42,355 bases of DNA from assembly GCA_020052375.1 (NCBI GenBank), contig JAGVPG010000018.1, positions 1 to 42,355 of the forward strand, written 5' to 3'. Below, piece after piece: positions 2,413-38,332 of this stretch. The translations under genes and the position numbers were made by a program. The stretch's first letter is position 1. Each line of letters starts with the position of its first letter. The notes beneath the pieces are model-generated. The model did no database searches, was not told the DNA's origin, and saw nothing but the letters and a program-made list of their open reading frames with translations. This stretch comes from Actinomycetota bacterium (GTDB lineage: Bacteria; Actinomycetota; JAHEXW01; JAGVPG01).

Positions 2413-2578
2413 AAAGTCATTAGATTTTTCTTTCTAATCACAGGCATCAGTAATGTTCTGGAAAGTAATACTCCCTTAAGTGCATCTGATTAGTTTTTCA
2501 CCCATTGAGAAACGGTGAACTTAATTCATTTTCTTCATTAGTACGCCGTGGTCCCTTACGTATTATGTATGTAATGCG

Positions 2579-2584
2579 TACAAT
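2579..2584 (+). promoter_or_regulatory. Possible -10 box for a leaderless transcript of the HEPN gene
   Basis: TACAAT ends exactly 6 bases before the ATG at 2591, and no Shine-Dalgarno sequence is visible. That geometry fits transcription starting at the start codon. The -35 region (TTACGT at 2556-2561) is weak. Confidence 0.4.
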
Positions 2585-2590
2585 ATACTT

Positions 2591-3970
2591 ATGACGAGCG
2601 CACATTGGAAGCCATATAACACTGACCTTTACCAGGCAACTCAGCAATTTGTTCAAGCGGTTATTGGGTTACTAAGCACTACACGACTGACACTAGAACT
2701 CAGTTTTGAGTACCGCCAGAGATGCGATTTCAAAAAGCTTGGGTCGGAGCAATATATCGTTACTTGGTATGAACCGAGGTTCTTGCTCCTGAATGACATC
2801 CGAGATGCGATATCTAAGCTGGACGAAACTAAGCAATGTGCTGAAATAATAAGGTCTGATTCTGAAATTGATCTTGAACCTTTCTATGACGAAACTAATA
2901 AGATCGAGTGGTATTTGTTGCCCTTCTTTGTCAGAGACTTAATTGACAACGATCTTGAGTTCGACCGAATTCATGAGAACTTTGATATCGCATTTGAGAA
3001 ACTTGAAACGTTCCTTTATTGCAGGGCATACAAATATCGTTTAGTAGCTGTACTAGATGGGTTTACCACATCAATTCCTTGCGCCAGACTAAGCCCTTCA
3101 GTGACCATACAAAGAATTGACGATAAAGATTGTCTTACGATGGCCGAGACAGCCGTCCGAAAAGATGAATCCTCTCCCGGATATCTACAAGGACACCCCG
3201 TTGCAGTGATTATAGATTGCGAGAAACCTAAAGTACCTTCCGGCAGCAACCAATGGCTTGACGACGAAAAAACAACAGCGCAAAACGTAGTCAGCGCCCT
3301 TCGTCTACTCCAAGTAAGTCGTGTACATATAAGAGCGTTCTTTCGTCTGCTAATAACTTGGCAACCTTATTCCGAGAACGGGTTCTCGCTTGAGGATCGT
3401 GTTTTTGGCTTTATGCCCGATTTCCACCTCGAGAAAGACGACTTTCCACAATTACTTACCTTGTGGAAGGAGATTGAAGTAGGATCTCAAGCAGTAACAC
3501 GCCTGAGAATCGCCCTTGATAGATATGAATCTACATTTGAAACAAAGGACACCGCGGAGCAACTAATTGATGCGGTTATTGCATTAGAGAGTTTATATAT
3601 TCAAGGAGGCAGTGAGCTTTCACATAAGTTAGCTTTAAGAGCTGCAACAATCCTGGGTAGGGATGGCAAAGACAGAGAGCAAATATATGGATTCATAAGA
3701 TTTGCTTATAAGATGAGGAGCGACTTTGTTCATGGAAGCATATCAGGAGACGACTTTCAGAAAAAGTTGGTTGTTAAGGATTCCAACGGTTCTAAGTTTA
3801 TAAATCAACTTCGAGAGTATCTCCGGCAGACATTACGAAAGTTTCTCGTTTTATTCACTCAGCGTCCGGAGCTTGCAAGTATATCTTTAGGCAATAAGGA
3901 AAAGTTGGATTGTTTTCTAACGTCTTGTGTTCTCTGTAATGCTAAGTTTGAGGAAAAGCAAACAGAATAA
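2591..3970 (+). CDS. ApeA-like HEPN domain protein
   Basis: A 459-residue soluble protein. The C-terminal third (about residues 315-440) carries the ApeA-like HEPN signature: DAVIALESLYIQGGSELSHK, then LALRAATILG and YKMRSDFVHGSISG. RSDFVH is the R-x4-H dyad expected of HEPN ribonucleases. The N-terminal 300 residues, with LLPFFVRDLI and a mixed alpha/beta pattern, are not assigned; in ApeA-type defence proteins this part senses infection. HEPN proteins of this type cleave RNA to stop phage growth. No Shine-Dalgarno precedes the ATG. Family assignment is good for the C-terminus; a role in defence is inferred from context. Confidence 0.72.
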   Translation: MTSAHWKPYNTDLYQATQQFVQAVIGLLSTTRLTLELSFEYRQRCDFKKLGSEQYIVTWYEPRFLLLNDIRDAISKLDETKQCAEIIRSDSEIDLEPFYDETNKIEWYLLPFFVRDLIDNDLEFDRIHENFDIAFEKLETFLYCRAYKYRLVAVLDGFTTSIPCARLSPSVTIQRIDDKDCLTMAETAVRKDESSPGYLQGHPVAVIIDCEKPKVPSGSNQWLDDEKTTAQNVVSALRLLQVSRVHIRAFFRLLITWQPYSENGFSLEDRVFGFMPDFHLEKDDFPQLLTLWKEIEVGSQAVTRLRIALDRYESTFETKDTAEQLIDAVIALESLYIQGGSELSHKLALRAATILGRDGKDREQIYGFIRFAYKMRSDFVHGSISGDDFQKKLVVKDSNGSKFINQLREYLRQTLRKFLVLFTQRPELASISLGNKEKLDCFLTSCVLCNAKFEEKQTE

Positions 3971-37104: not shown

Positions 37105-37563
37105 ATGTGGATGCAAGCACATAGTTTAAAGCGGATAACGGTCATCACGGTATCGGTGTTGTTAATGCTGGCCGTTCTCACTCTTGGTCCGGGGTGTATA
37201 TCCAATGCTGGAAAAACGGGGAATACGCTGCAATGGGGAGATAGCATCGACCAGGGGATCAGCAAAGCAAAAGCCGACCAGAAGAAAGTGCTCATCGACT
37301 TCTGGGGCAGTGGGTGAGGCGCTTGCATAGAGATGGATGAAAAGGTCTTTCCGGACGTTCAAGTGAAAGATCTGATCGACCGTCACTACGTTCCCGTGAG
37401 GATCGATGAGAATGCGGACACAGCGCCTTTCCAGAAATATAATGTCATCTCACTTCCGACAATGATCATACTGGACAGCGACGGTACGGAAGTCAGCCGC
37501 AGCGGTTATCTGGACGTCGAGGGCATGAAGGCATGGCTTCAGAGCGAAGCGGAAAAGAAATGA
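37105..37563 (+). CDS. Selenocysteine-containing thioredoxin-fold lipoprotein (in-frame TGA at 37315)
   Basis: Read through TGA 37315-37317 as selenocysteine, the gene gives 152 residues. The N-terminus is a signal sequence with a near-lipobox (LTLGPGC, Cys31). The thioredoxin domain follows: KKVLIDFWGSG, then Sec71-Gly-Ala-Cys74, then IEMDEKVFPDVQVKDLIDR, with the cis-Pro motif VISLPTMIILDSDGTE. In ordinary relatives the active site is CxxC, so the TGA falls exactly on the first Cys. Sequence after the TGA continues the domain without frameshift, and a SECIS-like hairpin follows. The stop overlaps the next gene (ATGA). A simple nonsense mutation is the alternative. Confidence 0.82.
37315..37365 (+). 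promoter_or_regulatory. UGA selenocysteine codon with bacterial SECIS-like hairpin
   Basis: TGA is 37315-37317. An apical loop GGUC (37344-37347) begins 26 bases after it, closed by AAA/UUU (37341-37343 with 37348-37350), then a G-C pair (37339 with 37351) beside a bulged A. The outer stem pairs CGCUUG (37320-37325) with CAAGUG (37360-37365). A GGUC loop above a short stem with a bulge is the layout of the E. coli fdhF element read by SelB. Pairing was done by eye. Confidence 0.65.
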
Positions 37564-38279
37564 AAGCGAGAGCGCGCCTCCGCGTAATGTGGCACGCTTT
37601 GCTTTTCAGCATCGGCTTTTCCATCCTCTTTATAATAATGGGAGCGACGACGGGTCTGGTCGGCAGGTTCTTCATAGACTACCGTTTTATCCTTCAAAGA
37701 GTCGCGGGCGCGTTCATAGTAATGATCGGCATCTATATGACGGGCATCCTGGAAAAGGCAGGCCTACCCGGTGTCCGGGGTTTCGATGTGACGAGATTCA
37801 AACTCGCCGGACCCTTGGGGTCGATCCTTGTCGGTTTTATCTTCTCATTCAGCTGCATAGGCTGCATCGGACCGGTATTCGGAGCGATCCTGGCTCTGGC
37901 GTTGACGCAGTCTTCACTCACGGGATTTCTGATGTCGGTCGCTTTCTCACTCGGGCTTGCTCTACCTCTGCTTGTGATCGCCTTGTTCATAAGCGCGCTT
38001 CTACCGGTCTTGGTCAAGGTGAACAAGTATCTGGATGTGATCCAAAAAACCGCCGGGATCTTTCTGATCTTCTTCGGGCTCGCGGTGCTGACGGGTTGGA
38101 TAAGCAGTATGACGGCATGGCTCGCGCCTCTGGCTGTCCAACAGACCGGTTTGGGCACGGTTTCGATACCTTTGGCGTTCATAGGCGGCGTTGTCTCTCT
38201 TTTCTCACCCTGCTTCTTCCCCCTGATCCCGGCATATCTATCGTTTTTAAGCGGCGTCTCCGTAGTGAACAGTGACTAG
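37560..38279 (+). CDS. CcdA/DsbD-type thiol-electron transporter, apparently circularly permuted
   Basis: A 239-residue protein with six predicted helices. The first five match helices 2-6 of CcdA, including SCIGCIGPVFGAILALA (Cys102, normally in helix 4). The last helix, IPLAFIGGVVSLFSPCFFPL continuing IPAYLSFLSG (Cys218), matches helix 1 of CcdA, which normally opens the protein. All six helices and both redox Cys are thus present, in the order 2-3-4-5-6-1. CcdA carries electrons from cytosolic thioredoxin to outward-facing thioredoxin-like proteins; here the partner is the upstream selenoprotein. ATG 37560 overlaps that gene's stop. Rearranged tandem copies are an alternative. Confidence 0.82.
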   Translation: MKARARLRVMWHALLFSIGFSILFIIMGATTGLVGRFFIDYRFILQRVAGAFIVMIGIYMTGILEKAGLPGVRGFDVTRFKLAGPLGSILVGFIFSFSCIGCIGPVFGAILALALTQSSLTGFLMSVAFSLGLALPLLVIALFISALLPVLVKVNKYLDVIQKTAGIFLIFFGLAVLTGWISSMTAWLAPLAVQQTGLGTVSIPLAFIGGVVSLFSPCFFPLIPAYLSFLSGVSVVNSD

Positions 38280-38290
38280 TCGCTATTCAC
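38265..38290. repeat. Imperfect hairpin across the ccdA-like stop codon
   Basis: GTGAACAGTGAC and GTCGCTATTCAC pair at 10 of 12 positions around TA, with the TAG stop near the centre. Similar TTCAC-rich DNA is seen near 4281-4302. It may weakly terminate transcription or mark a rearrangement point. Confidence 0.45.
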
Positions 38291-38332
38291 TAATCACTAC
38301 TTAATCTTCACCTGAATTTAATAAACCAATGA

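Follow-up and report, generated by a model that had tools for sequence, protein, structure and literature searches.

The window (contig C8, 42,355 bases) belongs to a draft genome of 1.64 Mb in 35 contigs that is 95% complete. On its forward strand, a gene for a thioredoxin-like protein with a lipoprotein signal is directly followed by a gene of the CcdA family, the stop codon of the former overlapping the start codon of the latter (ATGA). The features of this locus are collected in Table 1.

Table 1. Coordinates (within the window) and properties of the features at the locus.
Feature	Position	Strand	Remarks
Lipoprotein-signal thioredoxin-like gene	37105..37563	+	TGA probably read through as selenocysteine; within the phylum, most similar to DsbD C-terminal domains
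In-frame TGA, probable selenocysteine codon	37315..37317	+	First redox position, U-G-A-C motif
Weak stem-loop	37329..37350	+	11 nt past the TGA; 6-bp stem, 10-nt loop starting with GG; position compatible with a bacterial SECIS
Circularly permuted ccdA	37560..38279	+	239 aa; ATG overlaps stop of upstream gene; stop TAG
CcdA helices 2-6 in their usual internal order	37563..38135	+	Residues 2-192; HMM positions 43-233
Helix-4 motif C99-I-G-C102	37854..37865	+	Stands where W-[TSVIA]-P-C is usual; conserved redox Cys: C102; additional Cys: C99
Linker	38094..38165	+	Residues 179-202; native C-terminal tail joined to native N-terminal tail; no K, R, D or E
Helix that is normally helix 1 (AFIGGVVSLFSPCFFPLIPAYLSFLSG)	38166..38264	+	Residues 203-235; redox Cys is C218
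Palindromic TAGTGAN heptad repeat	38262..38300	+	Strong hairpin; supplies the last codons and the stop of ccdA

The last residues of the protein (VNSD), which follow GVSV, are encoded by the heptad repeat. The strict repeat pattern matched 13 times in the window genome, and a reversed control pattern not at all. TAGTGAN repeats were also seen at C13:58-76, C14:58-76, C16:62040-62070, C28:18883 and C3:31480; some of the repeats lie directly at gene ends (at the ccdA stop, at the ends of contigs C13 and C14 and next to a tRNA) and provide stop codons.

CcdA is a protein of six helices, with the redox cysteines in helices 1 and 4, that hands electrons from cytoplasmic thioredoxin to thioredoxin-like proteins on the outside, for cytochrome c maturation and thiol repair. 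The sequence-only reading had held that the window gene opens with helices 2-6 of CcdA and closes with the SPC helix that is normally the first, and that nothing like helix 1, but a thioredoxin gene, precedes it. Both statements were borne out. When sequences in the PDB were searched with the window protein (phmmer), a single relative was returned, CcdA (5vkv; E 6e-22), and it was matched in two pieces: residues 5-187 of the query corresponded to residues 35-209 of the 5vkv chain and residues 201-233 to residues 3-35, the pieces meeting at chain residue 35 and together covering 5vkv 3-209 in full. An HMM of 50 CcdA proteins with normal helix order, taken from the phylum of the window genome, was likewise matched by the unrotated protein in two swapped pieces (HMM positions 43-233, then 2-38). 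Rotation in silico at any cut near residue 195 yielded one match, spanning HMM positions 2-232 with 195 bits, which indicates that only few loop residues are missing and that the new ends are located in the loop between helices 1 and 2. All parts of CcdA are present in the window protein and become contiguous after a single rotation, as in a natural circular permutation, and this reading of the locus, already proposed from the sequence, holds. Because the helices follow each other as h2-h3-h4-h5-h6-h1, and not in the canonical order 1-6, the protein was filed as a variant of CcdA / DsbD_TM rather than as an ordinary member. The Pfam models DsbD_TM (PF02683; 29.5 bits, cut-off 27.1) and DsbD_2 (PF13386; 32.5 bits, cut-off 24.9) matched residues 7-176, the DsbD_TM match spanning only positions 42 to 214 of the profile. 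No second ccdA and no stray helix 1 was found in the 95%-complete window genome, in which the permuted gene was the only CcdA match. Thus, the window gene very probably encodes a naturally circularly permuted CcdA, which most likely works like ordinary CcdA; this assessment draws on what can be read at the sequence level, namely, the permutation, its recurrence, the conservation of both cysteines and the gene neighbourhoods.

The window protein has the six helices of the CcdA family and its redox cysteines in helix 1 (C218 in SPCFFP) and helix 4 (C102). Across the 32 permuted proteins that were eventually compiled (see below), C102 was invariant, as were S216, P217, C218, P221 and P224 in the relocated helix 1. 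This helix was also the best conserved segment of the family (3.37 bits versus 2.4-3.15 bits for the other helices), and the linker between helices 6 and 1 was the least conserved stretch (1.98 bits). The top conservation of the relocated helix, together with its invariant residues, argues that it is under selection, since a non-functional spare helix would not show such a pattern. The CIGC motif with its extra intramembrane cysteine, C99, was unique to the window protein among the 166 CcdA sequences compared; the near-invariant tryptophan and proline of the helix-4 motif WTPC are missing from it. In one alignment (A1), MAFFT placed helix 1 fragments on helix 4, a sign that the two halves of CcdA are similar in sequence; this alignment mixed isolated fragments of helix 1 with fragments of helices 2-6 and was not used, because helix 1 had been merged with helix 4.

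Whether the same helix order occurs in related genomes had been suggested as a check, and it was found in 31 other proteins (L091, L111, L118, L121, L154, L160, L181-L200, L202-L204, L206 and L207). When 85,000 species genomes were scanned with an alignment of seven rows, 80 CcdA loci were obtained, 74 of which were scored as normal, one as unclear and five as permuted; a sixth permuted locus, L121 from a Woesearchaeota archaeon, was added on closer look. The five comprise loci of an unclassified bacterium (L091), of a metagenome-assembled genome labelled Deinococcales (L160), of two Chloroflexi (L118 and L154) and of a member of the Caldilineaceae (L111), the record of which is titled complete chromosome (OY282381.1). 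Searching 400 Chloroflexota genomes with the A4 profile (window protein plus five permuted relatives) gave single-frame matches extending to the C-terminal helix 1 in at least 27 of them. Frame reading confirmed the permuted order for 25 newly fetched loci from as many Chloroflexota genomes and for G398 (L118). The carriers beside the window genome are, hence, these 26 Chloroflexota, two further Chloroflexota, the unclassified bacterium, the Deinococcales-labelled genome and the Woesearchaeota archaeon. An ATG lies 0-20 codons ahead of the helix-2 core match in 30 of the 31 relatives (none was present within that stretch in L206), and the frames stop soon past helix 1. The genomes with L091, L111 and L160 contain, like the window genome, no match other than the permuted gene; those with L118 and L154 also carry normally ordered CcdA. 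On the Woesearchaeota contig, a TlpA-like gene comes after the permuted ccdA (2477-3211), and a CcdA-like gene of normal order (589-1449) is located ∼1 kb upstream of the permuted one. Helix 1 came first in every CcdA gene read out from the phylum of the window genome. A scan of genome contigs and viral contigs with the single protein returned no close relative; identity of the window protein to its permuted relatives was 28-36%, and to a normal CcdA it reached 40%. The presence of the same order in 31 other proteins excludes chance, and permuted CcdA is, by its sequences, a subfamily resulting from a real natural circular permutation rather than a one-off or an assembly artefact.

In a tree built on the helices shared by both orders, six to seven changes between the two orders were needed. 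The window protein, which has a long branch (1.62), L160 and L091 branched apart from the Chloroflexota members, with weak support. AU tests rejected neither a single clade of all permuted members (p 0.10) nor one of the permuted members from Chloroflexota (p 0.34). One old origin followed by transfer and several origins are both possible; a repeated, independent emergence of the same permutation in bacteria and archaea, each time opened between helices 1 and 2, is a tentative proposal, to which we give somewhat less than an even chance. The most straightforward route would be a tandem duplication of ccdA with subsequent loss of the outer parts. Such a route would be supported by the linker, in which the native C-terminal tail (TGWISSMTAWLAP) is followed by the native N-terminal tail (GTVSIPLAF).

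Moving helix 1 to the end of the chain had been argued to keep every helix in its original orientation. In the closed six-helix bundle, the old N- and C-termini would share the outer face; a short outer linker would join helix 6 to helix 1, and the inner loop between helices 1 and 2 would be opened. Every helix should then hold its place and orientation, with both new termini in the cytoplasm. The distribution of positive charges fits this topology: the predicted inside segments (before helix 2, between helices 3 and 4 and between helices 5 and 6) contain 4, 4 and 2 K+R, and the segment between helices 4 and 5 and the linker between helices 6 and 1 contain none, although the predicted outside segment between helices 2 and 3 contains 2. 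An AF2 model computed with 35 normal helix-2-6 homologues reached a pLDDT of 79 and a pTM of 0.69, and a second one, computed with the 31 permuted homologues only, a pLDDT of 82 and a pTM of 0.73, with 83-85 for the moved helix and a helix break at SPCFFPL. In VIA, 5vkv was the top match for both models, weakly so for the first (TM 0.53, Z 6.5) and with a low Z of 5.4 for the second, each time covering only helices 2-6 plus tail; a permutation is beyond the reach of sequential aligners. Among the 50 Foldseek matches listed for the second model 5vkv was absent, which means little for a permuted chain.

Pfam and NCBIfam assign the upstream gene to thioredoxin-like and DsbD C-terminal domains; within the phylum, most of its nearest relatives were portions of long, DsbD-sized frames. 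Reading its in-frame TGA as selenocysteine, a correction to the sequence-only reading, results in WGSG-U-GAC, in which U occupies the first redox position. The window genome contains selB and a tRNA-Sec with the anticodon UCA, which makes selenocysteine credible; with an in-frame TGA at a redox position and the Sec machinery in the same genome, the upstream thioredoxin is a probable selenoprotein. The stability of the SECIS-like stem past the TGA was not above that of shuffled sequences. A nematode snoRNA suggested by Rfam over the TGA region, below threshold, was dismissed as a chance match. selB is present twice in the genome, both times with a tRNA-Sec-like gene next to it (C16:7670-9672, L083 and L068; C3:75209-77204, L067 and L082). 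The anticodon is UCA in one of these tRNA-like genes and GCA (Cys codons) in the other, and both systems coexist. A few bacteria are known to recode Cys codons to Sec (PMC10778597).

The cysteines of the relocated helix 1 (C218) and of helix 4 (C102) would accept electrons from cytoplasmic thioredoxin and pass them on to an outward-facing thioredoxin-like partner; in the window, this would be the translationally coupled lipoprotein selenothioredoxin, and in the relatives, proteins of the TlpA/ResA/CcmG type or of the DsbA type. The gene neighbourhoods point in this direction. By Pfam, L111 is accompanied by ccmB, a ccmC-type gene and an AhpC/TSA-type thioredoxin, L192 by a ccmC-type gene, L181 by an AhpC/TSA-type thioredoxin and L184 by a DsbA-like thioredoxin. 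By frame reading, ccmB/ccmC-like genes adjoin L190 and L191, ccmC-like genes adjoin L194 and L197, and genes for thioredoxin-fold proteins with FQCPFC adjoin L154, L182, L183 and L187. Neighbours of the ccmB/ccmC and thioredoxin type are the usual setting of CcdA. It is, therefore, probable that the permuted subfamily supplies thioredoxin-like partners outside the cytoplasm with reducing power; the acceptor in the window is likely the upstream lipoprotein selenothioredoxin, the electron path and the partner being deduced from this context.

That the unusual order is due to a misassembly, i.e., to a normal ccdA having been scrambled into a chimeric contig during assembly of the bin, might be suspected because the window comes from a draft genome in 35 contigs and because the 3′ end of the gene lies in a heptad repeat recurring in the genome. 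However, the internal junctions are spanned by no repeat, the frame is open throughout, and neither a second ccdA nor a stray helix 1 was found elsewhere in the window genome. Homologues with a normal N-terminal helix 1, combined with a misassembled locus, had been named as grounds for refutation; normal homologues do abound, yet the permuted order recurs in 31 proteins from other assemblies, including OY282381.1, and the refutation fails. The heptad repeat was, for this reason, rejected as a cause of misassembly, and the probability of such an artefact is negligible. The gene could also be the leftover of a broken tandem duplication, composed of helices 2-6 of one copy and helix 1 of the next, and without function here. 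Such decay would account for C-terminal residues past GVSV that derive from the heptad repeat and for the exchange of WTPC for CIGC in helix 4, which is restricted to the window protein. But the frame is open, both redox cysteines and the SPC-P-P motif are intact, the gene is tightly coupled to the thioredoxin gene via ATGA, no other ccdA was found in the genome, and the same architecture is strongly conserved elsewhere, which makes a functionless remnant very improbable.

Another possibility is that the permuted protein is a relative of CcdA with a changed role, such as supplying electrons to the selenothioredoxin alone or to methionine sulfoxide or arsenical chemistry, instead of serving cytochrome c or thiol reduction in general. 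The extra cysteine in helix 4, the long branch of the window protein and the selenocysteine in its partner would be compatible with such a role. No ccm gene was found near the window gene within the part of the window that was read, and a model for the ArsG permease was weakly similar to some permuted relatives, at scores far below the cut-off. Since other permuted members adjoin ccmB/ccmC and thioredoxin genes, as expected for CcdA, a separate function is considered unlikely, and a permuted CcdA working like the ordinary one remains the preferred interpretation.

Natural circular permutations are well known among soluble proteins. The window protein resembles normal CcdA (5vkv) in its six helices, both redox cysteines, an identity of 27-29% in structural alignments and the adjacent thioredoxin partner; it differs in that helix 1 comes after helix 6, the new termini lie where helices 1 and 2 are normally connected, and CIGC replaces WTPC. 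The transmembrane domains of DsbD and ScsB belong to the same family, and the thioredoxin of the window is nearest to DsbD C-terminal domains in the phylum, but DsbD combines N- and C-terminal domains in a single chain and keeps the normal order of helices, whereas the thioredoxin in the window is encoded by a separate upstream gene. SWEET and PnuC transporters have been proposed as topological isomers among membrane proteins; theirs is another fold with another function and without a clear circular permutation at the sequence level. VKOR and DsbB, two families of disulfide-forming quinone reductases and thus membrane thiol oxidoreductases, differ by a circular permutation of their four-helix bundle (PMC4555120). 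There, the two orders belong to separate, very distant families, whereas in CcdA both are found in one family recognisable by sequence. In 2020, it was stated that no natural circular permutation had been observed for polytopic membrane proteins (PMC7162841). The sequence-only reading knew of no natural permutation described for the CcdA family, and the open-access literature yielded no description of CcdA or DsbD in permuted form (subscription papers and preprints lie outside that scope).

The published permutations found for polytopic membrane proteins thus amount to one distant family pair, VKOR/DsbB, and permuted CcdA occurs within a well-studied family. For annotation pipelines, the finding is a warning: the DsbD_TM model matched all five permuted proteins scanned but missed the relocated catalytic helix, so that permuted genes look truncated. 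If the permutation did arise several times independently, the order of helices in the CcdA bundle would be interchangeable in nature, and insertion would not need to start with helix 1. An old question becomes directly testable with permuted CcdA: whether helix order and the order of membrane insertion matter for folding.
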